Below, in pieces: positions 16,466 through 45,500 of a stretch of 64,000 nt of DNA. This DNA is from Porphyra umbilicalis (Eukaryota; Rhodophyta; Bangiophyceae; Bangiales; Bangiaceae), in NCBI GenBank assembly GCA_002049455.2, contig KV918950.1, positions 1 through 64,000 on the forward strand, in the 5' to 3' direction. A program made the translations under genes and the position numbers. The stretch's first letter is position 1. Each line of letters opens with the position of its first letter. Below the pieces are notes generated by a model, which saw only the letters and a program-made list of their open reading frames with translations, was not told where the DNA came from and made no database searches.

Positions 16466-19146
16466 GCCGACCGCGGGCGCCGCGGGTGGGGCGGGGCCGG
16501 CGGCAGCAGCGTCGGCGGCGGCGGCGGCGGATCCCCCCCCACGCCGCACCGTGCCCCGCGGCGGAAGGAGGACCGCCCACGGGCGTGGCCGGCGACCGGC
16601 CGACGCGTGCCGCTGCGACGGGGGGGCTACGGCGCCGCCCGCAGGCGTGCGGCACCGGCGCGTGCCGACACGCCCGTGTGCGCGGTCGCTCCCGCGGTGG
16701 GGCTCCCGGCGGCCCGCGCGCACGCACGCTGCCGGCCGCCCCCAGGCGGCGCCCGTCACGCGCGGTCCACCGCGCCGGTTGGTCGCGCGGGGGTGGGTGC
16801 CGCGAACAACCCCCCCCCCCCGCCGCCCGCGTCGGCGGCCTAGGGCCGCCACGTCGGGCGGGTCCGAGAGCCGCCCGCCGCCGCTGCGACCGCATCAACC
16901 GCCGTGGGGGGTAGAGGGCGTGGGGGGGGAGGGGGGGACTTGCCGCCGCAACGACGTCTCGCGCGGAGGGTGAGCCCACCCCCTCACCATCTTGGTGTTG
17001 GCGGCAGCCGCGTGGGCGCCCCCTGTCCGCACCCACGGTGAAGGCAGGTGTCTGAGGCGGCACGCGTGGGGGAGGCCCGCGCTCGCTTTGCGGTGCGCCC
17101 CGCCGGGGGGCTCGTCGGTGGGCATGGTCGCCCGTCTCGTGCGGCTGCCGCCGCCGGCCGCGCGTGCGAGGCGGCGGCGGAGGACGACCAGGGGCAGCGC
17201 CACCGCGCGGTAGACAGAGGCGGCTGCACCATCGCGGGGCGGCGGGGTTGGTGACCGCAGCGGCAGACGGCGGGGGTCGGGTGTTGGACAGCGTGGCCGC
17301 CGCGCGGTGAGCGGTCGCAGTGGCGGTGGGGAGGCAGAGGGGACGGCGGGCCGCCCCCTCGTGCCGGTCGGCCCGCGCACGCACCGCCGGCGGTGGGGAG
17401 CCGCACTGACCTTTGGGCGTCTGCGTCGCGCGGGCTTCGCATCAAAAAGCAGCCACGTGCGGCGGAACCGGCGGGAAACGCCCAGGGGGGGAATGGCGCA
17501 CTACGTTTGGGGCGGGGGGACTGCCCACCCGTGGAGCGGTGTGCACCCCCGCGGTCGGAGCGGCTGGGCGGCGCGGCGGTATGAGGCCCAGGGGTCGACC
17601 CCAGCAAAGGGTGGACGCGCGTGCGCCGCCACCCCAGCGGTGCGCGCGGTGAGTGACGGTGGATCCCCGTGGCGGGGGGTTTCCTTTCGTCTGGCGGTGG
17701 GGCGCATCCTGTATGTGTTGCATAAAGGATGCGAAATCCAACCGAGCGCAGACGACGCAGGGACGCGGTGGGGACACGCTCCTGTGCGTTTGAGACAAAA
17801 GTCGTGGCCACACGGGCAGTTGTATTGGGAGGAGAGGACCAGCTGGGCTCTCTCTTGCAAGAATACCACACAATCGCCAAGCCCCGATGCTAGCTAGGAC
17901 GGCAGTGCTCATGCTCGCATATCGCTCTCCTTGGTGCACAGACAGAAAGCACAGCTCACAAATGCCCCTACTCAACACCTCGTTCGGCCCAGTCTGCGTG
18001 CGCAGACAGGGACGGAACAAATACAAAGAGAACGTTTTGTCATGCGCACCAGGTGAACTCGGTCAGACCGTCCCGTGCATCTATGGGGATGGCTCGAATC
18101 CTGCATGCTCTTGAGGAGCTATCTCGCAGTAGAGAAGCGCCAACAAGCGCCATGCAAGAAAAAAACACATTGGGAGAATGCCCCTGAGTTGCTTGTTCAT
18201 TTGTGAAAGAGGTAGCAAAAAATTACGAGGCACAGTCGTGTCGCGGCCGTCGATGTCCGTCTCGCGTCTTGCTATCTGAGGAAGCACAATCGGTTGTATT
18301 CATGACGACTGTCAGCCGGCGATTCTAGGCTTCTTATTGGCTCTTTCGGCCGGCGCTGAGAGTGGCTCCGCCGACAGACCGGCGGACCCCGCCTCGACGG
18401 ATCCGTCCCGAGCGCGCGCGACGAGGCCCTCAGAGCAGCCCAGCTGCCGCGCCGCCTGTCTCACCGCCATCTCACGCGCGCGCAGCAGAGGTAGCCAGCT
18501 GTCCAGCAGTACCTCCTGGTCTTTGGTGAGACCGCGGGTAGGCTGGGCCATGACGGGCTGCCCACGGCGGGCAGTGTGCTGGCCGCCTGGAGCCATGGTG
18601 TCCAACAGCACAAGGCAACGAGTGTGCGCCACACGCAGGTGGGTGGGGAAGTGAGAGGAGGTAAGAGAATGGAGGGAAAGGAAGGAAAACTGCGGCACTC
18701 GCTGGAGCCGAGACGACGGTCGTGGCCACAACGGCGAATGATATGGGGTTCCACCTGCGCCTTGTCGAGCCAACTGGACCCCAGCAGTCGGGCCTCAGAG
18801 GGACGGGAGGCACGTCTGTCTCTCCTCTGAACTGGGGCCAGCCGACCGCCTGGGGAGGCTGGCTTCTGTCGTGTTGAGAACGAGACAGAAGGACGTCTGC
18901 GTGCTCATGCAGTAACATGAACAGCACGTCTGTGTCCGTGGAGCACGCAATACGGATGAGTGCGACGCAGTACTGAGTGCAACCGCAGCGGGAGACGTCA
19001 GGCAGTCTCATGAGCCCTTGACATCGCCGAATCAGCGACGCTCATGGTGACTTTTGTCTATTTTATTTCTTGTAAAGAGCCTGTTGAAGCGCTCCGTTCA
19101 GTCCCAAGTCCACGAAATCTCGCTCGACCACATCGGAATCGCCGCT
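16466..19146. repeat. segmental repeat copy 1: blocks G, J and H
   Basis: Near-identical to 39482-42698 in the same orientation. Copy 2 differs mainly by the solo LTR inserted in it. Block G (16466-17640) is GC-rich with no supported gene. Block J (about 17640-18081) is moderate in GC with none recognised. Block H (18082-19146) holds the HTH gene on the minus strand and is also present inverted at 38427-39481. The few differences between copies suggest recent duplication. H abuts element E3 at 19147. Confidence 0.85.
18312..18596 (-). CDS. small helix-turn-helix protein with nuclear-localisation-like tail (H gene, copy 1)
   Basis: 94 residues from an ATG in an ACACCATGG context. The frame continues upstream to a TTG at 18773, which is not used here. 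Residues 22-40 are a charged helix. Residues 44-63 (AVRQAARQLGCSEGLVARAR) fit a helix-turn-helix with the usual A-x3-G-x-S spacing, as in transposon-derived or psq-like DNA-binding domains. NKKPR at 87-91 resembles a nuclear localisation signal. Identical in length to the copy at 41864-42148; a third copy at 38977 has a changed tail. The gene is always next to a copy of element E. Function is unknown; DNA binding, perhaps at the element's own ends, is inference. Confidence 0.5.
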   Translation of the reverse strand: MAPGGQHTARRGQPVMAQPTRGLTKDQEVLLDSWLPLLRAREMAVRQAARQLGCSEGLVARARDGSVEAGSAGLSAEPLSAPAERANKKPRIAG

Positions 19147-20430
19147 GTAAGGGGGCCCCGTGATTTGTCACACTCTCCATGATTGCGTACACTCCCAGTA
19201 TATCTTCAGGGCTTCGGCAGGCACAACGACCCGCAGGTCAGCCAATGAAGAGGCAGCAGCTGGTCAACTTCTCTCAGGCCATTGGTCGGCTGACCTGGTC
19301 TGGTCAATTTTCTTGGTCAGATGGGGACGCCTATTCGGGGGATTTTTGTGCGGCACGCATTCCCACAAAGCCCGATACATTCTTTCGTGGATTCCGCATC
19401 GTGTTGTGGGGCCCCTACGACAGCTGTTGTGAGGCCTACGGGACGGTGCCTTTCGGGTGACCGCAGTCTGCAGCGCTTCAGAGGGCTGTAGCCCTTCGCA
19501 TGGCGCTTCTCACCGTACGCGTCCGCACGGCTGCGGTCGCCCGAAACAATGATGTGGAAGCGCAGAAGAGAATGCGGGGGGGAAAGCTGGGCGTGTGATG
19601 CCTTGAGAGGGGGTCCACAAACCTGTCCGCAACGGATTGCACCGAATGTGGGCGTTTTCCTGAACCCCGGTTTAAGCACCACTGCGCGGGGCACGCCCAA
19701 GGTCGGCCGCGTCAGAGCATGGCGCAATGACAGTGTCGGGAGTGCACATTTTATTTTCCCAAAACAAAAAAACAAAAAGGACCCACCAATGGGGGGGGGG
19801 ACTGGGATTCGAGTAGCCTCCTGAAAAAAGAGTCTGGGCGGCTCCACGCCCACCCCCCCCCGCCGCTGCACCCCCCGCGTGGCAGTGGCCAAGACGCAGG
19901 GTCAGCGGCCGCAGCTGCCGCCGGCTGGCACCCCTACATACCCCCCAGCTTCGCCAGCCCCACAAGCAGCACCTTTGCGTCGGAGATCATCTGCACGGCA
20001 GGCCCCACGCCGGCCACGCCAGCCGCGTCCAGCACCCGGAGCGCCTCCTCGAGCGCCGCCACCGCTACCGCCAGCAACAGCCCGTCGCCGCCGCCCAGCG
20101 TCGCCTCGGTGGCACTGGCGGTTGCAGCGGGCGCCGCCCCGACCGCCGCAAAAAGAGACGCCTCCTTTGCCTTCCTGTTGGGGGGCGGAATCGTGGGAAT
20201 GCACCCGTCCTTTGAGCACTGGCGGATGGCGGGGGCGAGGGCAGGGGCGCGCCCCTTTGCGGGCGCCACCAGCCCCACCAGCAGCACCTTTGCGTCAGAG
20301 ATCTTTTGCACGGCAGGCCCGACGGCGGCCGCGCCGGCCTTGTCCAGCACCCCGAGCGCCCTCTCGAGCGCCCCCACCGCCTGCGTCAGCACGGGGGGCC
20401 CGTCGCCGGCGTCCAGGGACGATGCCGGGG
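19147..20430 (-). mobile_element. TIR element E, copy E3 (right-hand part only)
   Basis: Begins with the E terminal repeat GTAAGGGGGCCCCGTGATTT. It matches the reverse complement of the right 1.3 kb of E1 (about 37190-38426), and the match stops at 20430 inside the E gene. The left end is missing. It abuts block H exactly as E1 does. Confidence 0.85.
19934..20430 (-). pseudogene. 5'-truncated copy of the E secreted-protein gene
   Basis: Corresponds to roughly residues 112-274 of the E1 protein, including both internal repeats and the same C-terminus (LAKLGGM). The signal peptide and N-terminal third are lost at the 20430 breakpoint, and no in-frame ATG replaces the start. Confidence 0.75.
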
Positions 20431-20870
20431 CATAGCCCACCTCCCTGTCTCCACATACAGGCGAGGAAGCTGTGGCGCATGCTTTTCCCGGCTGAGAAGG
20501 GAGGCGAAGCGCGCAGCTGACAGGCCCGCCGACCCCGTTCCCCCCCCTGCCCCAGGCTTCCCTCCTACCAAGCGCGCGCGTCTGCGCAAGCTGTTTGTGA
20601 TGGCGGCAGAGACTATGACCACGTACGAGCGTGGATTGTCTGTGGAGTCTCCTTGAATGAATGACATGGTTATTCGGCGGCTATGACGGGTGGGAGGGCG
20701 TGGGGCGCCCACAATGACTCGTGCACGGTGCCTTCCTGAAATGGCGCGTGGGCGCACGGTGCCGGTCCGTGCGGCGCGATGCACTTGGAAACGGGAGGCC
20801 GGTCGGTGCCGATTTCTCCGAGGTAGAGGTCCCTGCAAGGAAAGCCCCCCCCCCTCTCATGGCCCAGCTG
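20431..20870. other. unique spacer between E3 and T1
   Basis: 440 bp between the E3 breakpoint and the T1 terminal repeat. I see no gene or repeat. Confidence 0.5.
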
Positions 20871-21104
20871 AGAGCAAAGCCAGCAATGTCGGTCTATCAC
20901 AACGTGTCTCAATTATTGGTAAAACGTGTCTAAATTCGCTTAATAGCCCACGAACAGCTGTGTGTCAATGTGAACGTGCCCTATTGAACGTCGAACTACC
21001 TCCTCGAATTTAGATAAGTCCAACTCGGTTCGATAGTCCGAGTGTCACAATAGGTCGCGCATGGCCTATTCGAAGCCGAAATACGGCACGCGCACCCTAT
21101 TCAG

Positions 21105-21586
21105 CATGGTTGGCAAAAATGAAAAATTCTGGCCGAGGACTTGCAATAATGCATAGATTAATCTATAAAAAGTGTAAAATTTGCATTAATTTATCATTTT
21201 ATCTGATTTGATCAACGGTCCAACAGCCACTGTGGCCGCCGACGTCGCGGCTGTTGCTGTCACGCCCACCAGCTTCCCCTCCACAGCGCGAAACCCCCCT
21301 TCTCTGCTGCGGCGTGCATGACGCTGCGGTTCTCCCACCCCCACCATCCCCGAAGTAGCGGCGGATCCCGTCGCGCTGCGGCTCCCCCTTCCCCTACCAC
21401 TCTGCCTCCTCCCGAGTCGGCCTTGGGGCCATTTGGCGTTTGACCAAGACACGGCCGCTCCGGTGCCACCATGCAAAAATGCAAAAATGCAATAAAATGC
21501 ATGAAGTCGTCAATGCATTAATGGTAGATTATTCATACATTAATTAGATTTAATATAATGTATCATTTTAATCGGTGCCAACCATG
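21105..21586. mobile_element. 482-bp hAT-like MITE inside T1
   Basis: Ends are CATGGTTGGCA and its complement (11 bp, perfect). The flanking 8-bp duplication is CTATTCAG (21097-21104 and 21587-21594). T2 has this site once (34495-34502, complement strand). AT-rich outer parts surround a GC-rich core. No gene. Confidence 0.92.
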
Positions 21587-21624
21587 CTATTCAGGACACT
21601 CGGACTATGCTACGGGCTCACTCA

Positions 21625-22186
21625 GGCCCAGTCTACACGGCGAGTGCACGGCGTGCTCAGACACGTGGTAGCCAATGGGAGCGCTTCGTTCCAAGCACAC
21701 CCCAATCACGCTAATACTTTTAGACCTAATCCGGCCGACCGTGCGATCCCGCACACAGAGGACTTACAAGCCGAACCAGGCTCATTCGGCGCATTCAAGC
21801 CGAACACGTTCACGTGCGCGAGATTTTTTTTTATATCTCGCGCACGTGAACGTGTTTGTAAAGGAATATGCCATTGGCGTCTATCGGCTGTCGCAGGAAT
21901 GATTGGACGAGAAGGCTCCTCACGACTGCACCACTCGGATCAAGAGATGGGAGACCCGTCAGTTCTCGAGAGACGCCCGCTCGGTGCAGCCGCGTACGTA
22001 GCTCTCGCGGCGTCGGTGTCATCCACGATATTGGATACGATCTGCCAGATCTGACTAAAGACTTTTGGCACGGTGTGTCCGTGCGTGCCGTGAAGAAAGA
22101 CGGCGCCACATCACGTGTTTTTTGGCGGACTTGTGTTCATATTGGCGCCGAATCACGTTCACGTCGCTCGCCGTGTAGACTGGGCC
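21625..22186. mobile_element. 562-bp TIR element inside T1 with 3-bp duplication
   Basis: Perfect 20-bp terminal repeats GGCCCAGTCTACACGGCGAG (21625-21644 and 22167-22186). Target duplication TCA lies at 21622-21624 and 22187-22189, and T2 contains it once. A 3-bp duplication with GG-starting ends suggests a PIF/Harbinger-type MITE, although TCA is not that family's usual TWA. It contains a strong hairpin at 21803-21856. No gene. Confidence 0.85.
21803..21856. repeat. perfect 22-bp hairpin with T-rich loop
   Basis: Arms 21803-21824 and 21835-21856 are exact complements, separated by a 10-base T-rich loop. Each arm contains TTCACGTG. The hairpin sits near the middle of the 562-bp element. Confidence 0.9.
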
Positions 22187-23777
22187 TCATTGGCTGGACA
22201 CCAAATCGTTGCAACATAAAACGTGTCTGTTGACAAACGACCACCCCAAATGACGACGGCGAAACGATCGCCGCTTCACTCAGCGGCTGGGAACGACAGG
22301 TGACCCAAGAGTCGACTTTTCCTGCCTCGACGGACGTAGACGCAATCGACGCGAGACCATGTAGTATCTGGGGCTCCCGATCACAATGCAAAATTTTGCA
22401 TGGGGTGGTCCCCGAGGAGCTCTGAGAGCGCTCGCTGCTCGTGGCTGGCACTGCGCGTCAAGGACGTGGCCCAGAAGCCACGCGAGAATGCCTTGACCAT
22501 TGCATTTACTGCATGGCTGGTGCAATACCATGTCCTGGCGTGTGGTGTCGGTGGTCATAACGACATGCATGGTCGACCCCCCCTGTGGGGTGCCGTGCGG
22601 CACCTCCTCCACAGAGCGGCCCACGCTCCCCCCCTGCACACTGCTGTGATCCACGCCTTCCGACCGCCGTATCGGCCGTGATGCCCGTATCTGCGACCGT
22701 TTCACCCACCGCCTGGCCCGCCCGCCCCCCACCCCGCCCGACCCCTCTCCCCACCCGCCCCCCCCCCCGCCCGCCCCCCGCCGCCGCCCGCCTCCCCCAT
22801 CTGCTCCCTCTGCTCCCCCGCTCCCGCCTTCCTGCTCTTCTCTCTTTTGCTGGCGCTTTCCGACCAGCGGGGGCCGGCGGTGCGGGCGGCCCCCACCCCT
22901 CTCCCCGCTGCGTCGCGCCGCGCCACCCGCGCCGCTGCGACTGCCGCCCCCGCTTTCCCTCCCCCCTGCTCTACCACTACCGTCCACCGCTTCCCCGGTC
23001 CTAGCTCCCCCTGCGCCCTTCCTCCGCACTCCGGGTGGGGGACGTTGCCAGCAGGCACCGGCCCCCGCCCCGCCGGGCCGCGGCGTGCTCCTCACCAGCC
23101 TCCCCTCGCTGTGGGGTTGGGCGCCCCTCGCCGGAGGCAGGCGGTCTCTGGCGGGTCGGGCTGGCGGTGGCGGTGCTTGGCGGTGTGGTGCAGGCGCCGG
23201 CGTCGGGTGCCAGCAAGCAGGGGGGGGTGCGGCAGCGGGGGCGCTCCCGGTCTCGGCTGTTGGCGTGGGGGCTCCGGCGAGTAGGCTGGCAAGCGGCGGC
23301 GGTTACGCGTCGGCGGTTGGCGGGAGTACCGGTTGTAGGTAACGGCTGGTGGTGGCGGGTTTTGGCCCGGGTGGTCAGAGGCCATCGATCGTGGATGGGG
23401 CGGCTGGTGGTGGTGGCTGGTGGTGGGGGCGGCTGGCGGCGGTAGGGGCCGGCGGCGAGGTCGGTCGGCGAGCAGCGGGTCTATGAAGGCCAAGCTGTTC
23501 ATCAAAAGCATGACTGTTGTTGTGTCTTCTGCAAAGCATAGGCGGGCAGGGGTAGCTGGTGTGGAGAGTACGTAGGGGTGAGAGGGGGTCACGCAAGGGG
23601 GGGGTATGCGTCATCTGTTTTCGGCTGTTGCTGGCTGCTACGGTGCTTGTGAAGCCATGCACATAGCAGTGTGTGTCCACTGTGTCCCCACAGACCACTG
23701 TATACAACAAAGTGGGCCGTTAGTGGCCGCCTGTTACCAGTGGGTGCCAGAGTACATTGGTGATACAACCGCCCATA

Positions 23778-24047
23778 ATGAGTGATGGGCCACGGATAAG
23801 TGTGCGTGAGGCTCTCATGGGACTGTTAGGGAGGGCCCAGAGTGCTTTGGCGGCATACCACCTCCGCAGGGGGCTCGTACGCTCGCTATTGGGGTGGCTG
23901 GGAAGGCTGAAAGCACGTTACGCGCAGTGGGCATCCTATGACAGTACTGGTGTGGCTTTTCAGGCTCTATCAGGAGTACACCATGTAGCACAGCTAATGC
24001 ACACAGAAAGTTGGCCAGCAGATGGGCCGGGCGTCGTGGGGGCGTAG
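23778..24047 (+). CDS. short K1 reading frame with AQSxLxA motif
   Basis: 89 residues from ATG at 23778. The stretch GRAQSALAAYHLRRGLV continuing to WLGRLKARYAQ is echoed in element L on the minus strand (27957 to about 28070, GVAQSTLIAWDLCRQLV...VWGKY). The surrounding DNA is much diverged there, which supports past coding. I know no matching family. It may be an exon or remnant of a larger element protein. Confidence 0.35.
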   Translation: MSDGPRISVREALMGLLGRAQSALAAYHLRRGLVRSLLGWLGRLKARYAQWASYDSTGVAFQALSGVHHVAQLMHTESWPADGPGVVGA

Positions 24048-24232
24048 CGGTGTATCTCGCCGCTGTGAACTTGGACGGGCGAAAAAAGAAGGAAGAAATC
24101 GTTTTTGCGCTTAGCGACTCACTATTTCCTTCCCAGGACCCTTCAGAGCATCAGAAACAAGTCTCTCTGAAAAAGTGATGTTTTGGTCGAGTTCGGCCCC
24201 GACGTGCCGTATGCTCCCCCTTCTTGGACCAT

Positions 24233-24532
24233 ATGGCAGCGGGGAACGCAGCGGTGACAAGACCATACCGATCCCCACCGAAGTTGAAAAAAATGGGGAC
24301 ATGGTACTGTAGGAGACATGAAACATTGTTTTCTTTGCAAAAAAAGATGCAGAACTGTTGTAGGCAGCAAGAGAAGCGCAGGGTCACAACCCACTGGATG
24401 GAACAGTGTCAGAGAAAAGAAGTGATCCACTGGATTGGGCAGTGTCAGTGTCGATCTGCCGAATACACTGGATCTGAGATGCTGTCAGCGGGGGTCCATT
24501 CACACTGCTTGGTGGAGTCATCTCCAGCCTGA
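24233..24532 (+). CDS. short K1 reading frame with two HWIxQCQ motifs
   Basis: 99 residues from ATG at 24233. It contains a basic region (KRRVTTHW) followed by HWMEQCQ and HWIGQCQ about 12 residues apart. The K2 frame at 31863 aligns without gaps over some 70 codons, with the same motif pair. Unknown function; the Trp/Cys repeats and basic stretch suggest a small DNA- or metal-binding protein, but this is inference. Confidence 0.35.
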   Translation: MAAGNAAVTRPYRSPPKLKKMGTWYCRRHETLFSLQKKMQNCCRQQEKRRVTTHWMEQCQRKEVIHWIGQCQCRSAEYTGSEMLSAGVHSHCLVESSPA

Positions 24533-26119
24533 TCTGCCGCCAGGCCCCCCTCAGTTGGTTGCCAAGACGGTCACGACTGCCGTCGTCAGTGCCTTTCTTT
24601 CCGTTGTGTTGGATCTGACGCGCTGATAGAAGGTTCCACCTCCCTCCTGCCCCCGTCTCCCATCTCTTCTCCCCAGCAGTGATGCTTCTTCGCTCAATTC
24701 CCCCTGCAGTCGCTGTTCCCCCCGCCCGCTGCTGCCTCCCCCATACGATGCTGCCTCCCCCGTCCTCTGCTGCCTCCCCCGCCGCTGCTGTCTCCCCCCC
24801 CGCTGCTGCATCTCCCCCGCTGCTGCACCCTTCCCCGCTGCTGCCCCCCCCCATCTTTATTACTTTCCCCCGACCGTGGCTGGTCCCCCTCACCGCCGCT
24901 GTCCCGCCTCACCGCCGATGAGTCCCCTACCGCCGCTGATCCCCCCGATCGCCACTGCTTCCCCTCTTCGCCGCGGCTCTCATGCCGACCGCCCACACGT
25001 CGGGGTCACCGCCACCGACCGCCAGCGGGGGCGGTCGCCAGCGGCGGGGGCGGCGGCCAGGGGCAGCAGCGGCGGTCAACAGCGCGGGCAGTGGCCAAGG
25101 GCGGGGGCGGCGGAAAGCGGCGGGGGAGGTGGCTGGCAGCGCGGGCGGCCGCCAAGTGCGGGGGCGGCGACGAGAGGCTGGGGCGGTGGCCGGCAGCGCG
25201 GGCGGCCGCCAAGGGCGGGGGGATCGTCCATAGGCGGGATTGGTGGCTGGCCGCGCGGTCGGCTGCCGGCAGCAAGGGTGCCGCCCGGCTGTGGGGCGGT
25301 GGCTAGCGGCGGGGGCGGCGCCAGCAGAGGGAGCGACAGCCAGTGGCGTGGCCAAAAGCTCGGGGGGGGTGGTCAGCGACAGACACGAGCGCGCAAAACA
25401 TGCGGCTACCAAGGGGGGGGGGGAGACAGCCAGGAAGGGGGGGTGAGGCGGTCGGCAGGGAGGGGGCTGCGACCAGCAGCGATGGCCGTTGCCAGCAGCT
25501 GAGGAGGGGGATACAGCATCAGCGTTGGACGCGCTGGAGCAAACCGAGGCAGACGGTCATACACAGACACGAGTACAAGGGGTACAAGGAGTGTACTGAA
25601 GTACCATTCCTCTCACGTGGCATCATCCTCACTCGAATCCCCCCCCCCCAGAAGCCCCGAAATCCCCTCCCCCACCCCCCACGTGGCGGGACGACAGGCG
25701 TTCCCCCCCCCCCCACCACCCCATGCGGATTTTTTGCATTGTGATCGGCGTTCTCAAATACTGCCTCCGCGAGACGCCGTGACGTATCAAGGCGACACAC
25801 ACGAGTCGCTTGCGGCCACTTCGGAGGTAGTATTTGACATTCTCGATCACGTACCGTTTTTTGGTGCGTGAGGGGGGTGGGGGGGGGCGGCCTGTGCGCG
25901 CGCCACGTGGGGGGATTCAGGGGGCGCGTGGGTGGTGGTTTGGTGGGGGGGCTAGCACTTTTTGAATTCTGTCGATTTTGTGCCACGATGCGACCTCGTG
26001 CATTTTTGTACTTGCAATGAAGCTCGTGACTAGACATGACCGCCTCGGCACCTGTGTCTGGCATCACGGTGATCCAGATGGGTGTTGGGCTGTCCTCCTC
26101 ACTCAGCGGGGGGGATCTG

Positions 26120-26940
26120 CACTGTCACTGGGCGTGCACGAACTGCCGCCCCCGCCCTCGCCGCCGCCGCCACCGCCGCCCCCGCACCCGCTGCCCCCGC
26201 CGTCGCCGCCCCCGCCCCCGCCTCTACACTTGCCGCCGCCCCGTCCGCCGCCGCCGCCCCCGCGGCTGCCGCCCCCGCCACTGGCCGCGGCTCCCGCCAC
26301 TGGCGCCTCCTCCGCCCCTGGCCGCCTCCCCCGCCCCTGGCCGCTTCCCCCGCCCCTGGCCGCCTCCCCCGCCCCTGGCCGCCGCGCCCTCCGCTGGCTC
26401 CCGCCCCCCCTCGGGCCGCCACGCCCGCTGCTGCCGCAGCCCCCGCCGCCGCCGCTGCTGCCGCCCCTGAACTCGGCCCCCGCCAATGGCACCGCCGCCG
26501 CCGCAGCCCGCTGCCTCCCCTGCTGCCGCCGCCCCCGCCGCCGCCGTCGCCGCTGCCCATGGCCGCGGCCCCCACCCCCGCCGCCGCTCCCGCCCCTGGC
26601 TGCAGCCCCCGCCGCCGCCACCGCGCCCGCCCCCGCCTCTGCACTCGCCGCCGCCCCCGCCGCCGCCCCCGCCCCCGCGGCCGCAGCCTTCGCCGCCGCC
26701 ACCGCCCCCGCCCCTGGACGCGCCCCCCGCCACTGGCGCCGCCGCCGCCGCTGGCCACTACCTCGCCTGTTGCCGCTGCCCCCGCCACCGCCGCCACCCC
26801 CGCTCTTGGCCGCGACGCCCGCCACCGCCGCCGCCCCCGTCCCTGGCTGCAGCCCCTGCCGCCGCCGCCGCCTCAGCCCCTGGCCGCGGCTCCCGCCGCT
26901 GGCGCCGCTCTCGCCCCTGGCCGCCTGCCCTCAGGCTCAT
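26120..26940. repeat. C-rich GCC/CCCGCC array in element L
   Basis: Imperfect tri- and hexanucleotide array, C-rich on the plus strand. It can pair with the G-rich array at 28385-29520, and its complement has G-quadruplex potential. The Pro/Ala frames across it are by-products. Confidence 0.85.
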
Positions 26941-27956
26941 TGGAGTGGCGTGGGTATTGGGCTGGTGAAACAAGTGTCGCCGTGGGTGGTGGAGGAGATG
27001 GGGTACGGGGTGAGGAGGGAGGATTGGTACTGAGGCGCAGGTGGAGCATGGTACAGGGTGAGAGGGCAGCGAGGTTTGGGTATGGTCCGAGGAAGCAAAC
27101 TGGATGGGGGTGGAATCGGGGTACTGACTGGGCGTGTTTCTGGCGACCGGGGCGTGTAGCCGAGCGGGCGCGGGGAGGTGAATGCGGCGTGTGCTCAAGA
27201 GAAACACCTTGGGACAGACCCTCCCTGTCGCCACATCCTGACCACTGTATTACTGTTTTCTGAGATTTAGCCCACTTGGACAGGAACAGGACTGGACCGA
27301 AACGTGATCTGATTGGTGCACGTCATTTTTCTGTTGCGCCCATTGGCCGAGGCGGCTGTTTCTGCCGATGTTGTTCTTGTTCGCATCGGCTAAAATTCAG
27401 CGAACAGCAATATTCGGTAAGATCGCTGACACTGCATGGTCCAGTTGATCACACGTCTGTCTGATGACACTGCACAATCCAGTGGAATCGTTGGTTGCGC
27501 TTCCCTACCTGCATACAGCAGCTCTCGTTGTGCTTTCACAAAAAAAATACCATCGCACATCACTAACAAGGTTATGTATGCTTCCTGACCAGCTGCGAAA
27601 AGAAAAGGTGCTGCTGGGTGCACTTGCTTCACGCGTTCCTTCACTTGTGCAGTCCTGCTCACATCGGAGGTACGTCGAGCACTTCTGGGACAAACACGAG
27701 CAAAACACAACTTTCTTGGAGAGGATCCTTGTTGGGTCTTTGAAGGGCGCTGGTTACGGTATTGTGGGTCTTTTTGTGCACAAACACTTCTTTCATACCG
27801 TTTCTGCCCTCCAAAGGTATCAGTCACCAGTACCCGACACCACCTCCCCAGCCTGCCATACCCATCCATACCCCAGACGTTTTAGCGCACTGCCACCGGC
27901 ATGTATCAGCCCCTCAGTAGAGCCCAAAAGACGGGACTACTACCATCACAGGAAGC

Positions 27957-28070
27957 CTAGAGGACGTCCTTTGCCACGTACTTTCCCCAGACCTCCCCAG
28001 CAATGGGCACGAGCTGCCTACAGAGGTCCCAAGCTATCAAAGTACTCTGAGCGACTCCGGAAGTTGTGTA
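27957..28070 (-). pseudogene. remnant of the K1 AQSxLxA frame in element L
   Basis: Minus-strand translation contains GVAQSTLIAWDLCRQLV and VWGKYVAK, aligning with the K1 frame at 23778. No ATG opens it, and the frame ends early relative to K1. A second remnant, of the HWIxQCQ frame, lies at about 27420-27490 minus and falls in two different frames. Confidence 0.35.
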
Positions 28071-28384
28071 CACCTCCTGCAAGGAATGTATCCATGGTAT
28101 GCCGCCCCCCCACCGTCGTGTATACGGCAACTTAACGATTGCTCCTTCCGGCAACGGAAGGCAACAAAGTCATGTGGCGGTCAACAACACACTTTTCAAG
28201 GTGCGTATACACATGGAGTAGCACAGAGACTGTGCGGGCTCCATAGAAGTCGCCAGGGAAAAGTAAAACACGACATTATACCCCCCCAACTGACCACACC
28301 AAACCAGCCCAGTACCCCGACGGCACCTGCCCCCGTCCGCCCGAGTCAGGGGGAAGTGGTAGGGACAAAAGGCACCCACCTGTG

Positions 28385-29520
28385 GCGCGAGCCGCCGCCA
28401 GGGCGGCGCCAACGAACGGCTGCAGCAGCCGCCGCGCGGACGGCAGCAGCCGGCGGCAGCGGCAGCCGGTGGTGGCGGCGGCGGCAGGCGGCGGCGGCAG
28501 GCGGCGGCAGCAGGGGGCTGCGGCGGCAGAGGTGGTGGCCGGGGGCCGCGGTGGCGGCACGCAAGGGCGGCGGCGGCAGGGGGCGGGGGCGGCGGCAGCA
28601 GGAAGCGGCGGCAGGGGGCAGCGGCGGCGGCGGTGGCGGCAGGAGGCCGCGGCGGTGGCACGCAGGGGAGGCGGCGGCACGGGACGGCTGCCGCGGTGGC
28701 GGCGGCAGAAGGCGGCAGCGGTGACACGCAGGGGCGGCGGCGGTAGAAGGCAATGGCGGCAGCGGCAGCGGCGGCAGGGGGCCGTGGCGGTGGTAGCAGC
28801 GGCGGCGGAGGCCGCTAGTGGCGGTGACGGCAGGCAGGGAGGGCGGCGGCAGGAGGCAGCGGCGGCTCCGGCAGCGGCACGGGGCGGCGGCGGCGGCAGC
28901 GGCGGCAGGGGCTTGCCGGAGAGAGGGCGGAAGGGGTGGCGGTGGCGGCGGGGGCGGCGGGGGCGGGGGCAGGGGCGACGGCAGCGGCGAGGGAGGCGGG
29001 GGCAGCAGCGGCGGGGACGGCGGCTGCGGCGGCGGGCGCGGGCGGGGGCGGCGGGGCCGGGGGCGGCGGGGGCGGCGGCGGCGGCGGCGGCGGCGGGGAC
29101 GGGGGCGGCGGGGGCGGCGGCGGGGGCGGCGGGGGGGGGGGCGGGGGTGGCGAGGGCGGGAGCGGTGGCGGTGGCGGCGGGCGGGGGCGAGGGCTGGGGT
29201 GGCGGGGGCGAGGGCGGCGGGGGCGGGGGCGGGGGCGGCGGCGGCGGGGGCGGCAGGGGCGGCGGCGGTGGCGGCGGCGGCGGGGACGGGGGCGGCGGGG
29301 GCGGGGGCGGGGGCGGCGGGGGCGGGGGCGGGGGTGGCGAGGGCGGGAGCGGTGGCGGTGGCGGCAGGCGGGGGCGACGGCGGGGGTGGCGGGGGCGAGG
29401 GCGGCGGGGGCGGGGGCGGGGGCGGCGGGGGCGGAGGCGGGGGCGGCGGGGGCGGGGGCGGGGGCGGGGGCGGGGGCGGCGGACCGCGGGGGCGGTGGCG
29501 GGGACGGGGGCAGGGGCGGC
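28385..29520. repeat. G-rich GGC/GGGGGC array in element L
   Basis: Trinucleotide GGC sequence passing into GGGGGC hexamers. It includes a larger duplicated unit: segments near 29143-29222 and 29330-29408 are almost the same. Very high G-quadruplex potential. Polyglycine and polyproline frames here are not genes. Confidence 0.88.
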
Positions 29521-30832
29521 GGGGGCTGGGCTGGCGCGGGCGCGGTGGCGATGGCGGTGGCGTGGTCGTCGTGCCCGTCATGACGGTCACGGTTTACACT
29601 CGCAGGCGAGGCCTGTTGGTGGGATCGTGGGTAGTAGTGTAGGGGGGGGGGCAGTCATGGATTCTGGTCATGCCCGGTCACGGCCACGGTGCGGTGATTA
29701 CTGATACACGCGTGCATCCCAGGAGGGTAGGTAAGTATCGAGCTGGGCACGTGGCACTGTTGGGTGTCGTGGCAGGTCCCGCCGCCGGGCCGAGGAGCGG
29801 GCCCGGGCGCGGCCGGGTGCGGCCCGCTGGGCGGGCGCCGAGCGCTGAGAGCGCGTCTCCGCACCAAAAAACGGTACGTGATCGAGACTTCCAGATACTA
29901 CATGCCACTTCAAGGGCCCCCGGGTCTTGTGCGAATCTTCTGAGCCTCCCACGCATGTAGGATCCCAGGATCTAAAACAACATGCAAACGTTTGCATCTC
30001 AAAACAGCTGAGAAGCTCTGAGAGCGCTTGCTGCGCGTTGCTGCGGCCGTGCGTCTAGCACTTGTCCCAGGCACCAGAAGGGAATGCCTCGGCCAGTGCA
30101 TTTACTGCTTCGCTATTGCAATACGATGGCCAGGCATGGGATGTCGGTGGTGATGACGACACGCACGGCCGACACCCCCCCCCCAGGATGCTGTGCGGCA
30201 CCCCCTGCACAAAAGTGATCCATCCCCCCCCCCCTCCCGATGCTCTGAGCCACACCGTCCGACCGCCGTGTCGGCCGTGATGCACGTGCCGCGGCCGTAT
30301 TGCACCTGTCCGGCCGGCCTGCCACGCCCCCCTCCCCCAGCCCCCCCCCCCGCCCCCCCCCCGCTGCTCCCCTCTTCTCCCTCTGCTCCCCCGCTTCCAT
30401 CCCTCTACTCTTCTCTCCCCTGCTTCCGCGTTCCGCCCATGGGGGGCCGGTGGCGGGGACGGGCACCACCCCCTGCGCCGTCGCACCGCGCTGCGCCACC
30501 CGCCCCGGTGCGACCCCCGCCCCCACATTGCCTCCCCCCTGCCCAATCCGCCGCCTTCCTCCCCTTTCCCTGTCCCAGGCCCCCTTGCGCGCTCCCCCTT
30601 CACCCCGGAGGTTGGCGGTACCAGCGGACACCGCCCCCCGCCGCGCCGCGCCGTGGCTCTTCCGACGCGGCGCAGCGACCTCCGCCCCTGCCCCTCTCCG
30701 CTCCTCCGTGTGAAGGGGTCAGCGGCGGCAAGTGGGGCCGACGACGGGCCCAGCGTGGGGCAAAGGCGGCGGGTGGCGGGGGCAGCCTGCGCGGGGGCGG
30801 CCTGTGCGGGGGCGGCGGGGGCGGCGGGCGGC

Positions 30833-30904
30833 GGGAGCGGCGGGCGGCGGGAGCGGCGGGCGACGGGAGCGGCGGGCGACGGGAGCGGCGGGCGACGGGA
30901 GCGG
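30833..30904. repeat. 16-bp minisatellite in K2
   Basis: About four and a half units of GGGAGCGGCGGGCGAC, the first with minor variants. Confidence 0.85.
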
Positions 30905-31862
30905 CTTACTGTGGAACGGCCGCCAGCGGACGCAGCCGGCTGTAGGCGTGGCCGGCGGTGGAGGCGGGCGCTGGCGGGCGCGGCGGCCGGCGGGCGAGGT
31001 GGCCTCTTGCTGCGGCGGGTTTTAGGTTGGGTGGTCGGCGGGTGGGGTACCAGGCGGCGGCGGCTGGTGGTGGCAGTGACCGGTGCTGGGAGCGGTCGGC
31101 GACGGGAGCGGCCGACGGCGGGGTCGATCAGCGTCTGTCTTCCGGCGGCGGGGGCGACCAGCGGCGGGCGGCGATGGAGCCTGTCCAGGTGGGCGGTCGG
31201 TGGGGGTGGTGGCCGACCGCAACTGCTGGTTGGCGGCGGGGCTGGCGGGGGGGCCAGCGGGCGGCGGCGGCTAGCGGCGGCGGGTGTCGGAGTGGGCGGT
31301 CGGTGGGTGGGGTGGCTGGCGGCCACACAGGGGGATTATGCGCCGCGGTTGTGTGAGAGGGGGATACCCCAGAGCTATAAACGAGTCTGAAAAGAGTTCA
31401 CCGGATGCCTGGTGTGCAAGGTACCCACGCCCACCATGTGCGGACAGCTGGGTTGATCGAAAGCACTACGTACGTACTGCGGGCGTCCAGTGGGGGTGCT
31501 GATGTGGTTCCAGTGGGGGTGCTGATGTGGTGCTTCGGGCTCTACGCATAGTATAGGGTGTGCGGTGAGCACACACACCAAATGCTGGCTAGCCCACAGG
31601 CTGAGCACAGTGGGGAGGTGGTGGCAGTTTCCAGGTTCTGTGGTAGGGGTTGTGACCTTCGGGGGGTGGAAAGAGCATGAAGGAGGCCTTTCTAAGCTTA
31701 GCCAGTCACAATGCCGTTCCCAGGACCCTTCAAAGGTTCAGAAACGAGTCTTTAAAAAAAAAGTGATGTTTTGGTCGAGTTCTGCCCAGACGTGCCGTCC
31801 GCTCCTTCTTATCGGACCAGACGGCAGCTGAGTACCACGCGACAACCAGACCACACCAACTC

Positions 31863-32198
31863 ATGTGGAAACTAAAAAGAATGGGCACAGAGTACTGTAG
31901 GAGGAATGTGGTGACGTTTATTCTGCGAGAAAAGAAACAGAACAGTCGTAGGCAGGAAAAGAAGCGTAGAGTCGTCACCCACTGGATTGGACAGTGTCAG
32001 CACCAACACGTGATTCACTGGATTGACCAGTGTCAGTGTCAATCTGCCGTGTACAATGTATCTGACGCGCTGTCAGAGGGGGTCCTGACGCACCTGTTGA
32101 TGGAGGTCTCTCCTGCCTGCTCTGTGCCCATGCCTCCCTCAGTTGGGCGGTGTCCCAGTTGGGCGGTGTCGTCACGGCAGCTACGGCCGCTGTCGTGA
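31863..32198 (+). CDS. short K2 reading frame with two HWIxQCQ motifs
   Basis: 111 residues from ATG at 31863. KLKRMGTEYCRR, a Lys/Arg-rich stretch (RRQEKKRRV), THWIGQCQ and IHWIDQCQCQSA align gap-free with the K1 frame at 24233. The two copies diverge after about residue 87. Not assignable to a family. Confidence 0.35.
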   Translation: MWKLKRMGTEYCRRNVVTFILREKKQNSRRQEKKRRVVTHWIGQCQHQHVIHWIDQCQCQSAVYNVSDALSEGVLTHLLMEVSPACSVPMPPSVGRCPSWAVSSRQLRPLS

Positions 32199-33696
32199 CT
32201 GTTTGAATGCCCGCTGAATTCCACCGTTGCTGGCTCCCCCCAACGACGCCGCTCCCACCACAGCAGTGCTTCCCCAGTTCATTGCGGCCTCCGTCCACCA
32301 CCGCTGGCTACCTCGATCAACGCTGCCTCTTTCCCCCACCGCTGCCTCCCCCCACCACTGCTGCCCCCCACTCCCACTGCTGTCTCCCCCCAGCGTCGCC
32401 GCTCCCATCGTTGCACAGCTCCCTCCACCACCGCTGTCTCCCCCCAATTCTGCTACCTTCCCCCACTGTTGTTGTCTCCCCCCACTGCTGCTGTGTCTCT
32501 TTTTCAACGGCATCCCCCCTCCATCACCGCTGCAACTATAGGTAGCCTCACGCAGCCGGGTGGTGGCGGGGGGGGCGAGCCAGCATCCTGCAGCGTGTCA
32601 CCGCCACAACTCTCTCGGCTGCCCGTGCGGCCGCAGCCCCGCTGCCTACCCCCGTCCTTCCTTCTGCGCGGGGTGTGATTTTTGCCCCATCTACCGTCGA
32701 GCCGGACACGCCCGCCGCCGCCACCGCTGCGGAGCAAGCGGGGACGGCGGCAGCCAGAAGCGGGGGGGGGGTGGCGGCGCGCATAGAGACTGCGGCGACC
32801 AGGGGCGGGGGGGGGGGCCATTACCGCGCGGGGGGAGGGGGGTAACGATCAGCAAGGAGGAGGCGGCAGTCAACTGGTCAAGGCGGTGGCCAGGAACATG
32901 CGTGGGAAACAGTAGCAGTGTCGGACGCGATGGAGCAATACCGAGGCAGACGGTCATGCACAGACAAGAGTACAAGGGGTACAAGGAGTGTTGTGAAGTA
33001 CCATTCCTCGCACGTGGCATCATCCCCGCTCGAACCCCCCCCCCCCCCAGAAGCCCCGAAATCCGCTCCCCCACCCCCCCACGTGGCGGCACGGCAGGCG
33101 TTCCCCCCCCCACCCGAACTGAGATGCAAACGTTTGCATGTTGTTTTAGATTTGCAAATCCTACCTCCTCCCACGCTGCCGTAGCGTGTACGTCAAGGGA
33201 CAGACGTAGAGCACCTCTCTGTGCTTCTTTGCCTCCTTTCTTGTGGTCGAGTATGAGTGGCTCAAGGGAGTGAGCCGAGGCTGTCAAAACTGGCACGGTG
33301 GCAGCCTGGGGTGCTGCCATGTGTCAGATGATTGTCCTATATCGGCACGATCGGCCACTTCGCGTCGTGTATGTGCTTCGTGTCCGCGTCGTGGCAGACG
33401 ATCGCCACCTTCTTCCAGCCTGAGCACAGAAATCTCGGGCGGATCACGGGGATCTCGCGGTGCTGGCGCCTCTCTGATTCCACTGAGATATAGTCCATTG
33501 GAATAGACCACGAACGACCCACCGATGAACGTGGCTATCGGCGAGAAGGTAGCCTACTCATGAGTAAGTCTATTGCGTATATCGTCCATTTCAGGCCTCG
33601 CCGTTAGGCGACCTCTGAAAGGGCGCCACGTCGCATGCCCAATTGAGAATTTAACAATATAGTCCCGACATTGCTGGCTTTGCTCTCAGAGCTCTC

Positions 33697-34728
33697 AGAG
33701 CAAAGCCAGCAATGTCGGGGCAATATTGTTAAATTCTCAATTGGGCATGCGACGTGGCGCCCTCCCAGAGGTCGCCTAACGGCGAGGCCTGAAATGGACG
33801 ATATACGCAATAGACTTACTCATGAGTAGGCTACCTTCTCGCCGATAGTCACGTTCATCGGTGGGTCGTTCGTGGTCTATTCCAATGGACTATATCTCAG
33901 TGGAATCAGAGAGGCGCCAGCACCGCGAGATCCCCGTGATCCGCCCGAGATTTCTGTGCTCAGGCTGGAAGAAGGTGGCGATCGTCTGCCACGACGCAGA
34001 CACGAAGCACATACACGACGCGAAGTGGCCGATCGTGCCGATATAGGACAATCATCTGACACATGGCAGCACCCCAGGCTGCCACCGTGCCAGTTTTGAC
34101 AGCCTCGGCTCACTCCCTTGAGCCACTCATACTCGACCACAAGAAAGGAGGCAAAGAAGCACAGAGAGGTGCTCTACGTCTGTCCCTTGACGTACATGCT
34201 ACGGCAGCGTGGGAGGCTCAGAAGGTTCGCACAAGACCCGGGGGCCCTCGAAGTGGCCGCTAGCGACTCGTGTGTGTCGCCTTGATACGTCACGGCGTCT
34301 CGCGTCGATTGCGTCTACGTCCGTCGAGGCAGGATGTGTCGACTCTTGGGTCACCTGTCGTTCCCAGCCTTTGAGTGAAGCGGCGGTCGTTTCGCCGTCG
34401 TCGTTTGGCGTGGTCGTCTGTCAACAGACACGTTTTATGTTGCAACGATTTGGTGTCCAGCCAATGAGTGAGCCCGTAGCATAGTCCGAGTGTCCTGAAT
34501 AGGGTGCGCGTGCCGTATTTCGGCTTCGAATAGGCCATGCGCGACCTATTGTGACACTCGGACTATCGAACCGAGCTGGACTTATCTAAATTCGAGGAGG
34601 TCGTTCGACGTTCAATAGGGCTCGTTCACATTGACACACAGCTGTTCGTGGCCTATTAAGCGAATTTAGACACGTTTCACCAATAATTGAGACACGTTGT
34701 GATAGACCGACATTGCTGGCTTTGCTCT
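33697..34728 (+). mobile_element. TIR element T, copy T2, uninterrupted
   Basis: 1,032 bp between AGAGCAAAGCCAGCAATGTC (33697-33716) and its complement (34709-34728). It lies tail-to-tail with T1, separated by the 10-bp near-palindrome CAGAGCTCTC (33687-33696). The adjoining arms (33177-33686 and 33697 to about 34206) form a long, almost perfect palindrome. It holds each T1 insertion site in empty form. The short frames in it occur in both arms and show no family features. Confidence 0.92.
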
Positions 34729-34886
34729 GAGGGGGTTGACTTCATCAACGTTGCGAGTCAGAGGAAAAGACAGGTATTTTCGTCGTAATCCGAGAGGAGG
34801 CTAACATATTTTGATCTGACCAATAGACGATTGCATTTGACGCGAGAACCCAATGGGACGTTGTAACTGCGGTCGCGACCCAGAAG

Positions 34887-35268
34887 TAGGGTTGCTCAGA
34901 ACGCCCGGGGCGTCGTTAAGGGCGTCGTTAAGGGCGTCACCAGGGCGTCATTTGGGCGTCGTGCGCCCCTAACGCCCCAACTCAGAAGGGCGTCAACAAG
35001 GCGTCGCGAAGAGGAAGTTTTCAGTGGGGTCCACATGATTCAGCAGGTGGCGGCTGTGCACCTTGGTTGGGGACAGGCACCCAGTCTTGACACAAAAAAG
35101 AGATATGAGAGCGCGATATGGGTGCTACTTGTACGATATGAAGAATATTGAGGGTGCTACTTGGGGCGTCTTGGGGGCGTTTTGGCTGCCTAATGGGGCG
35201 TCAGTAAGGCGTCATATCCGTCGCGCGCCCCTGACGCCCCCGAAATAGGGGCGTCGTGTGCAACCCTA
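34887..35268. mobile_element. 382-bp hAT-like MITE, TAGGGTTGC family, copy 1
   Basis: Ends are TAGGGTTGC and its complement, with a perfect 8-bp duplication CCCAGAAG (34879-34886, 35269-35276). The interior is built from GGGCGTC/GACGCCC repeats. It is near-identical to 51574-51955. The 61-residue frame inside is incidental. Confidence 0.93.
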
Positions 35269-35310
35269 CCCAGAAGAGCCGATACACTGGGTCTTGACTA
35301 ATTTAGGCGT

Positions 35311-38300
35311 GTAAGGGGGCCCCGTGATTTGTCACACTCTCCATGATTGCGTACACTCCCAGTAATGTAGGGGGCCGGCGTGGTCCAGGCCGGGGCGGTA
35401 AGAAAAAACACACTATCTTTACGTACACACACCCCCCCCACACAACACCCATGGCCCCCGTGCTGGCCGTCGCCATCCGGGCGAAGCGGCATGCGGCGAC
35501 GGCGGCGGGTTGCAAGGGGGCCGGGGTGGACCCGCCCCGGCCGCTGTCGCCATCCACACCTTCTGCCAGCGCCCTGCCAGACGGCGCCTGGCTGGCCCGT
35601 CGCCTACCCTCCACCGCCACCCGCGTGGGTGCGGGGAGGATGCTGTTTTGGGGTGGGGCGGGTCACCCGGGGGAGGAGCAGGACAGCCCCGAGGCCCAGG
35701 CGGCGGCGCGCACCCCGATAGCGCACCCCTCGTGTGGTGGATAGACAGTGTCTAGGTCGGGACGTGGCGGGTGGTGCGCGGGGCGTTCGGGGGTGCGGCG
35801 GCCGTGGTGCGGGGCGGTATCCCCTGCTATGCGTGGCCGCCCATGGCGCGTGTGTGTGGGCCACCTGAGTGAGTGGGGTGGGACGAGAATCGCATTGGAT
35901 GGTGGCCCCGCGTGATCCCCCCCCCCCCCCCCCCCCCGCCCCGCTTGCTACTCCTCTGTCTGAAAAAAAGGACGCAAAAGAAACGGGCGGCGCCCACTGC
36001 TGACCCCGACCACCATCGCTCTACCCGTCGCCACGGCCGCCGCCGCCCGCTGGGCTGACACCCAGCGCCACAGGGGCGACGCCTGGGAACAAGACGATGG
36101 GGTGCACGCACGTGGGGAGGGCGCGGCGGCCACGGCGCATAACCATCTCCCGGCCTTGCTGTGCCCCCGTCCCTCCCCACCGCCCCCGTTGGCAGCGTTG
36201 GCAGCGGGTGGCGAAGGCCGGTGGGGTGCGGCCGCCAAGGGGCGCGCCGCAACAACGTTTGCCAGCGTGGCACAGGTGGTGTCATGCTAGCACGACACAG
36301 ACGCGCCCTTTTCATTGGCTGCCGAGCTTGTGCGATGAGGCGGATCACGCAGCAAGACACACCAAGCCGTAACACGAAGGCGTGATGTCTCCCGCGTTGA
36401 TACCCGTACAGTGCATCCCCTGGGGCGGCCAACCGCCGCCCCCAAATCCCTCTTGCGTTGCTGCCACGAGCAGCCAGTCCACACTTGCCGGCGCACCCCT
36501 ACGCCTGACACCCGCAGCGGGGCACCGCTAGGGCTCGCAGATACTCCGCCCCACCAGACTACCCCCTTGCGCTGCCTGGCCCGGTGCGGAGCTGCCGCTC
36601 CCGCCGCCAGCAGATCGCACCGTACTCGCACTTTTGCCCCCGCCGCACCACTGGGGTGCCGTACACCGCTGCTATATCAGCAGGTGGCTGTCCCCCCCCC
36701 TGCCATTCCCCACAGCTTTCCCCATCCACTCACGCACACACACACACACACGCACACACGCATACGCCGCGCGCCAGCACAGGTGGTCAGCGTACTGCCG
36801 CCTTCCTGCCAGACCCAACCCCACCGACCGACCGCCCCCGCTGCCGCCGTCGGGGTGCTCGGGCTCTTGTTGGGCGCTCCTCGCCATGGCCCCATCGTGC
36901 CGCGTGGTGATTGGGGTAGTCACCACCGCCGCGGCGGCGCTGTTGGTGGCTGCCATTGCCACGGCGGCGCCGTCGGTCCAAGCGGCGGTGTTGCCTGTGG
37001 CGGCGGCTGCCCCCACCGCGCGGGTGGGGGGGGCGCCCGCGAGTGAGCGGGTGGCCCTGCCGCAGGGGGGTGCGCCCGCCCCCGCGCCCGCCATCCGCCA
37101 GATCAAGATCAAGTGCAAAAAATGCAAGATCAAGATCAAGATCTGCAAAAAATGCCAGACCAAGCTTTCCAAAGCGGCTTCCGTGGCGGTGCCCGCTTCT
37201 GCCGTCAGTGCCGCCCCGGCATCGTCCCTGGACGCCGGCGACGGGCCCCCCGTGCTGACGCAGGCGGTGGGGGCGCTCGAGAGGGCGCTCGGGGTGCTGG
37301 ACAAGGCCGGCGCGGCCGCCGTCGGGCCTGCCGTGCAAAAGATCTCTGACGCAAAGGTGCTGCTGGTGGGGCTGGTGGCGCCCGCAAAGGGGCGCGCCCC
37401 CGCCCTCGCCCCCGCCATCCGCCAGTGCTCAAAGGACGGGTGCATTCCCACGATTCCGCCCCCCAACAGGAAGGCACAGGAGGCGTCTCTTTTTGCGGCG
37501 GTCGGGGCGGCGCCCGCTGCAGCCGCCAGTGCCACCGAGGCGACGCTGGGCGGCGGCGACGGGCTGTTGCTGGCGGTAGCGGTGACGGCGCTCGAGGAGG
37601 CGCTCCGGGTGCTGGACGCGGCTGGCGTGGCCGGCGTGGGGCCTGCCGTGCAGATGATCTCCGACGCAAAGGTGCTGCTTGTGGGGCTGGCGAAGCTGGG
37701 GGGTATGTAGGGGTGCCAGCCGGCGGCAGCTGCGGCCGCTGACCCTGCGTCTTGGCCACTGCCAATCCCAGTCCCCCCCCCCATTGGTGGGTCCTTTTTG
37801 TTTTTTTGTTTTGGGAAAATAAAATGTGCACTCCCGACACTGTCATTGCGCCATGCTCTGACGCGGCCGACCTCGGGCGTGCCCCGCGCAGTGGTGCTTA
37901 AACCGGGGTTCAGGAAAACGCCCACATTCGGTGCAATCCGTTGCGGACAGGTTTGTGGACCCCCTCTCAAGGCATCACACGCCCAGCTTTCCCCCCCGCA
38001 TTCTCTTCTGCGCTTCCACATCATTGTTTCGGGCGACCGCAGCCGTGCGGACGCGTACGGTGAGAAGCGTCATGCGAAGGGCTACAGCCCTCTGAAGCGC
38101 TGCAGACTGCGGTCACCCGAAAGGCACCGTCCCGTAGGCCTCACAACAGCTGTCGTAGGGGCCCCACAACACGATGCGAAACCCACGAAAGAATGTATCG
38201 GGCTTTGTGGGAATGCGTGCCGCACAAAAATCTCACGAATAGGCGTCCCCATCTGACCAAGAAAATTGACCAGACCAGGTCAGCCGACCAATGGCCTGAG

Positions 38301-40649: not shown

Positions 40650-40654
40650 GCGCC

Positions 40655-41174: not shown

Positions 41175-41179
41175 GCGCC

Positions 41180-45306: not shown

Positions 45307-45500
45307 GAGCAAACCTAGCAATGTCAAAGGACTATCCTTAAAATCTCAATTGGGCTTGCGACGTGGCGCCCCCTCACAGGCCGCCTATTGTAGGCTCCTG
45401 AAATGGGCGATAAGCGCAATAGAGTTACTCCTGACAGGGCTACTTTTCCATCGATAGTCCTCTTTGTTGGTGGGCGGTTCGTGGCCCATCCCTTGCAGTA
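45307..45500 (+). mobile_element. old T-family copy T3, left part
   Basis: Starts with a diverged T terminus and aligns with T2 33697 to about 33890, including CTCAATTGGGC and GACGTGGCGCCC, at clearly lower identity than T1. It is interrupted after TA at 45499-45500. Confidence 0.75.

Follow-up and report, generated by a model that had tools for sequence, protein, structure and literature searches.

Transposons of the PIF/Harbinger type and the related Tourist-like miniature inverted-repeat transposable elements (MITEs) are characterised by a 3-bp target duplication, by terminal inverted repeats (TIRs) and by short derivatives that carry the ends of a long element encoding a Plant_tran/DDE_Tnp_4 transposase. 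The same features are found in the element described here, T, two copies of which (T1 and T2) lie tail to tail in the first 64,000 nucleotides (the window) of contig KV918950.1 of the red alga Porphyra umbilicalis (assembly GCA_002049455.2). T1 has been split into six pieces by five other transposons, designated inserts A to E, T2 is uninterrupted and the pair occupies a single target site. With little better than even confidence, we read the locus as a non-autonomous PIF/Harbinger-type element present as an inverted dimer in one TNA site, most likely arrived there as a unit, with five other transposons in the T1 arm and with an excess of insertions in that arm that is probably for the most part the result of clustering and chance.

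Nested and multimeric plant MITEs, inserted into or beside related MITEs, were reportedly described by Jiang and Wessler in 2001. Compared with these, T1 and T2 form a tail-to-tail dimer in one target, with outer triplets that match each other and inner triplets that do not match the outer ones. In the accessible part of an account of the MtPH elements of Medicago, Harbinger elements likewise appear as targets of later transposons, with one or two nested elements per copy, whereas T1 has received five in a 1-kb non-coding copy beside an intact twin (PMC2213677). In composite transposons or macrotransposons such as TIME-COMP, a small element present twice can reportedly be mobilised as one unit through the outermost ends, but TIME-COMP is bacterial, of the Tn3 type, and carries other genes, whereas T1 and T2 are separated by just a 6-bp link between two triplets (PMC4133298, PMC13367494). 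The locus is a clear example of nested transposons, a known behaviour rather than a new kind of system. What it offers is a base-level record in which one target used by a two-copy unit, five other insertions, an intact twin and eight paralogous empty sites can be read together.

A single target site for the T1–T2 pair

T1 was mapped onto T2 by self-comparison of the window and by alignment of T2 against positions 20771-33691, the ends of the inserts being set from other copies of each insert element and judged by eye. All six pieces of T1 (20871-21104, 21595-21624, 22190-22357, 25776-25823, 29913-29953 and 33176-33686) lie in order on one strand, collinear with T2. They total 1,032 bp, the length of T2, with 23 mismatches between the two copies in the alignment (Table 1). 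A preliminary description of this DNA had recognised T1 and T2 as twins of one TIR element, T2 serving as an uninterrupted control with which the T1 pieces are collinear, and all of this is upheld by the alignment. Its near equality of lengths (1,031 against 1,032 bp) also stands once the T1 sum is corrected, as does its estimate of about 11.8 kb absorbed, the inserts with one duplication each adding 11,784 bp to T1. What it missed is that both arms share one target site.

Table 1. Features of the T1–T2 locus (positions in the window)
Feature	Position	Strand	Duplication or supporting sites
TGA, outer target duplication to the left of the pair (final A = T position 1)	20869..20871	+	One triplet at 8/8 paralogous sites that have both flanks
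T1, 1,032-bp PIF/Harbinger-type TIR element, six pieces, five inserts	20871..33686	+	
Insert A, 482-bp TIR element, TIR CATGGTTGGCA	21105..21586	+	CTATTCAG, 8/8
Insert B, 562-bp TIR element, TIR GGCCCAGTCTACACGG	21625..22186	+	TCA, 3/3
Insert C, 3,410 bp, ends CATGTAGTATC / GAGGCAGTATT	22358..25767	+	CGCGAGAC, 8/8
Insert D, 4,081 bp, end type of C and E but inverted	25824..29904	-	CCACTTCG/CCACTTCA, 7/8
Insert E, 3,214 bp, ends CATGTAGGATC / GAGGTAGGATT	29954..33167	+	CTCCCACG, 8/8
Arm junction TCA GAGCTC TCA	33686..33697	+	
T2, 1,032-bp copy without inserts, facing T1 tail to tail	33697..34728	-	
TGA, outer target duplication to the right of the pair	34728..34730	+	

Read on the plus strand, the order of the locus is TGA-T1-TCA-GAGCTC-TCA-T2-TGA. 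T1 alone is flanked by TGA and TCA, T2 alone (in its own direction) by TCA and TGA, and the pair as a whole by TGA on both sides, so that the inner triplets match each other and the outer triplets match each other. Two independent insertions would need later change to arrive at this agreement.

The flanks themselves are repeated in the genome, and for this and all other genome-wide counts the search space was the assembly of 83.8 Mb in 665 contigs (labels such as C28, C126 or C650 denote its contigs, and T copies are named after them). Six other places hold both flanks adjacent to each other, the left flank being 86-98% and the right 91-95% identical to those in the window, and are separated by TGA plus a single additional G. 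At two more places, C179 and C67, the left flank runs to its end and the right flank adjoins it. The triplet at C179 is TGA. At C67 (C67:8740-9025) the left flank is 99% identical, the closest to that in the window, and the triplet is TCA, not TGA. Each of the eight paralogous sites at which both flanks are present has one triplet (TGA at seven, TCA at one) and no GAGCTC, and because they carry one triplet without the link the T1–T2 pair is shown to occupy a single target site. The C179 and C67 sites strengthen the case for a single target and weaken that for the identity of the triplet by about as much: the TCA at C67 lessens the weight of any one triplet and leaves the absence of the link unaffected. 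A pair of neighbouring insertions into a target TGA-GAGCTC-TGA, with the link subsequently flipped, was also considered and is ruled out, GAGCTC being absent from all eight sites. The target of the dimer (20440-20868 plus 34732-34886) is itself a repeated sequence, its eight further copies with both flanks adding another level of nesting.

The junction TCA-GAGCTC-TCA has no other occurrence in the assembly besides contig C650, an 11,885-bp contig (10,000 read) that repeats window positions 28573-38660 and differs from them by 8 mismatches and 154 gap bases in 10 kb. C650 is either an uncorrected assembly duplicate or a second allele. As a second allele it might have ordered the events at the locus, but it holds the same junction, insert E and part of insert D, the same state as the window, and so gives no order.

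Origin of the inverted pair

Against a consensus of 19 T copies, T1 has 15 differences and T2 has 10; one or other departs from the consensus at 24 positions, of which a single one (position 894) is common to both, and the distance between them is 23. The distance of T2 is 11 to the C28 copy, 11 to C2 and 14 to C84. Its base at position 394 is shared with C84 and C2, that at 532 with C28, C84 and C2, and that at 153 with C28, C84, C43 and C2; all three of these lineage bases are absent from T1. As T1 is further from T2 than either C28 or C2 is, and as T2 shares lineage bases with other copies, T2 was not copied from T1; by their base differences, T1 and T2 are separate family members that have been joined.

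How two such copies came to lie in one site can be accounted for as follows. Two different T copies would have been joined tail to tail via the short TCA-GAGCTC-TCA link, probably through insertion at, or next to, the TNA that flanks the other copy. The resulting dimer, whose outer ends are both T head ends, would most likely have entered the site as one unit, duplicating TGA. The five other transposons entered the T1 arm after T1 existed, whether before or after the arrival of the dimer, leaving the 8-bp or TNA duplications now seen there, and most of the excess of five in one arm would be due to ordinary transposon clustering plus chance. Comparable joins are found elsewhere. At C1, a shared TGA joins a T copy to a diverged T-like end, and the opposite end of this copy lacks a matching triplet; at C310, a copy of insert B and a related end likewise have one TGA in common; and at C11, a copy of insert B leads into TCA, then a 35-bp remnant bearing B-type ends, a second TCA and a related end. 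GAGCTC, lying between two TCA triplets, is perhaps another such remnant, even shorter than the one at C11. More tentatively, TNA-type elements of this alga might use a related element's end plus TNA as a target, linking copies as at T1–T2, C1, C11 and C310, with inverted dimers then transposing as units that have a head at each outer end.

One of two readings offered in the preliminary description is that T2 arose from T1 by fold-back copying at a later time, while T1 was still without insertions. The tail-to-tail symmetry and equal length of the arms are what such a copy would have, but the consensus differences and distances contradict it: T1 and T2 have just one derived base in common, T2 shares three bases with C84 and C2, and a distance of 23 is that expected of two independent family members lying 15 and 10 from the consensus with one difference shared. 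The link TCA-GAGCTC-TCA, moreover, is not its own reverse complement. Only heavy gene conversion from other copies, replacing T2, could reconcile a fold-back origin with these data, and we regard it as highly improbable. Growth of the pair in place is possible, if doubtful. T1 would have inserted into TGA and further T copies into the duplicated TGA beside it, after which recombination between the inverted arms would have flipped the link from TGA...TGA to TCA...TCA. This history is equally consistent with the single-triplet paralogous sites, the shared-triplet end-to-end joins at C1 and C310 and the chain at C11 resemble its steps, and 1-kb arms of 98% identity could probably recombine; on the other hand, it calls for an inversion and for GAGCTC to have been acquired between the arms, and no intermediate was seen. 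Arrival as a unit is preferred since the link then needs no change.

Several points nevertheless weigh against arrival of the dimer as a unit. Such movement cannot be told apart from growth in place with a later inversion of the link, and no second copy or donor of the dimer was found in the assembly besides C650. Each triplet has one variable base, and the TCA at C67 points to base changes among the paralogues or their targets. Finally, PIF/Harbinger excision is usually precise (109/110 in yeast; PMC2836001), which disfavours GAGCTC as the remnant of a third element. The locus illustrates how small Harbinger derivatives can join into inverted dimers, which may be a route to long palindromes and composite elements.

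The T family and its long relatives

T is a non-autonomous PIF/Harbinger-type element, as judged from its TNA duplication, its TIRs and ends that match those of a transposase-coding long element. Complete copies are ~1,032 bp in length and carry a 22-bp TIR, AGAGCAAAGCCAGCAATGTCGG, at both ends, within the 14-25 bp range applied to TIRs of this type. Apart from T1 and T2 there are 17 complete copies, of which 15 have matched TNA triplets at their flanks; C1 and C381 are the exceptions. Since the survey of T yielded 60 matches, with 40 of 237 candidates scored, the counts of T copies are lower bounds from which diverged copies are missing. The triplets seen (TGA, TCA, TTA and TAA) follow the pattern TNA, in contrast to the TTA/TAA alone given for PIF/Harbinger in the accessible part of PMC2213677.

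The TIR pattern occurs 60 times in forward and 56 times in reverse orientation in the assembly, and facing pairs are frequent, mostly 12-15 kb apart by our own reading of the places, which are listed in part. Long elements with T TIRs and TNA duplications were identified on C126 (13.4 kb, TAA), C201 (13.7 kb, TGA) and C113 (12.5 kb, TCA). The C126 element (within C126:40700-54300) has open frames of 749 and 707 amino acids. The 707-amino acid protein scores above cut-off against both Plant_tran (1e-61) and DDE_Tnp_4 (4.3e-12), making the element a putative autonomous relative with a predicted DDE transposase. In a search for the second, Myb/SANT-like ORF1 protein, the sole match of the 749-amino acid open reading frame (ORF) was to NAM-associated (0.0083), below cut-off. 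No relatives of the parent transposase with solved structures were found at E 0.01. Positions 1-302 of T match the ends of the C126 parent at 94% and positions 638-1032 at 78%; two points in which T and its parent depart from the PIF/Harbinger pattern are that T 303-637 is unmatched in the parent and that the parent reads as 13.4 kb. An element of 13.4 kb is unusually long for the PIF/Harbinger superfamily.

Five insertions in one arm

The duplications flanking the inserts are not chance matches, because duplications of the same length recur around other copies of the inserts. Among the copies fetched from elsewhere in the assembly, an 8-bp duplication was present in 6/6 for insert A, 8/10 for insert E and 2/3 for insert C, and a TNA duplication in 10/10 for insert B (nine independent, the flanks on C32 and C259 being identical). 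For insert D the evidence outside the window is weak, with an 8-bp duplication at the exact end in 2/7 and one more offset by five bases. All five duplications of the preliminary description are present, those of C, D and E having been given one base out of register; in the correct register the C/G mismatch of the third, written GCGAGAC(C/G), vanishes, and the one mismatch now falls in the fourth. Each is indeed single in T2 at the aligned place, although TCA occurs 17 times and CCACTTCG twice in T2 as a whole.

Insert B, with its TNA duplication and TIRs, is a putative PIF/Harbinger-like MITE. Inserts C, D and E share an end pattern (CATGTAG.ATC and GAGG.AG.ATT), and the 8-bp duplications of A, C, D and E make hAT, or another superfamily with an 8-bp duplication, the candidate assignment; ten frames (eight from C, D and E, one over the A/B junction and one in T2) gave no Pfam match above cut-off, so that no transposase supports it. 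Insert D has a GC content of 72% and contains inner inverted low-complexity repeats, two long, GC-rich blocks of which (26145-26932 and 28422-29562) are mutually inverted with ~72-74% identity.

Insertions were counted in 18 complete T copies, C381 being excluded for an internal deletion. Twelve have none, four (C39, C488, C2 and C341) have one each, C99 has two and T1 has five, the highest. The other explanation put forward in the preliminary description, that T1 is a preferred landing pad (here taken to mean that T has hot spots and T1 is unusually open to insertion), draws on this count, with 5 of the 11 insertions in T1 and six in the other 17 copies (simulated probability of any copy having at least five, 0.0033). 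It draws also on the positions of the sites, which are somewhat clustered, 10/11 falling inside 330 of the 1,032 bp (P 0.0019; Kolmogorov–Smirnov p 0.036), though with interval widths chosen after the sites had been seen. One sequence, CTTCTGAG, makes up the whole duplication of the C2 insert and recurs next to an A-like element at C465; in the 1.3 kb read at C465, however, no left half of T was found. Against a landing pad, the adjoining T2 and 12 of the 18 copies have no insertion, a 5:0 split between two equal arms has a probability of 1/16 by simple arithmetic, and the C39 and C341 inserts, with overlaps of just 2 and 4 bp, may not be simple transpositions. The C, D and E types, moreover, cluster elsewhere: among 65 loci assembled by hand (17 C, 30 D and 18 E, excluding short, more diverged and cross-family hits and C650), seven pairs lie within 2 kb of each other, five of them outside the window, against a roughly expected 0.1. 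The contigs of these outside pairs (C62, C500, C11, C155 and C294) are not among the T matches listed, and C155 and C294, in which the spacing is nearly equal, may represent one duplicated segment. Given this, a preferred landing pad is unlikely. The locus also carries a caution, namely that many insertions in one copy can reflect genome-wide clustering of the invaders and not a special landing pad.

Seven single T ends (C68, C109, C212, C267, C465, C413 and C39:145946), none of them in the 18 complete copies, were read further. C465 alone was added, giving 12 sites; C68, where a copy of insert D starts 2 bp after T 521 with no T on the other side, was left uncounted. A tight hot spot at T 502-514 was considered with these sites and rejected, four of the 12 falling within 12 bp (P 0.003) and the same number within 20 bp (P 0.013), both widths being post hoc.

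As to the surroundings of the locus, the GC content is 65.6%, which compares with 64-67.9% in Bangiophyceae and 37-57% in other red algae (PMC7423979) and with 70.06% in Neoporphyra haitanensis (PMC8752119), and no RNA families and no tRNAs were found in the window. Elsewhere in the assembly, contig C665 carries phycobilisome genes, for which the nearest phycocyanin beta of solved structure is 6kgx, a red algal entry. Large direct and inverted repeats of 97-99% identity flank the T locus (16467-20431 and 35310-45306 in the self-comparison), examples being 17623-19203 with 41175-42755 and, inverted, 18084-19818 with 39481-37754. Positions 34887-35000, which adjoin T2, and 51574-51687 belong to a repeat; of the 40 places scored for it, 32 were further matches at 95-99%, including one within the window. 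A T-like fragment at 45301-45484 shows 76% identity to the T tail.

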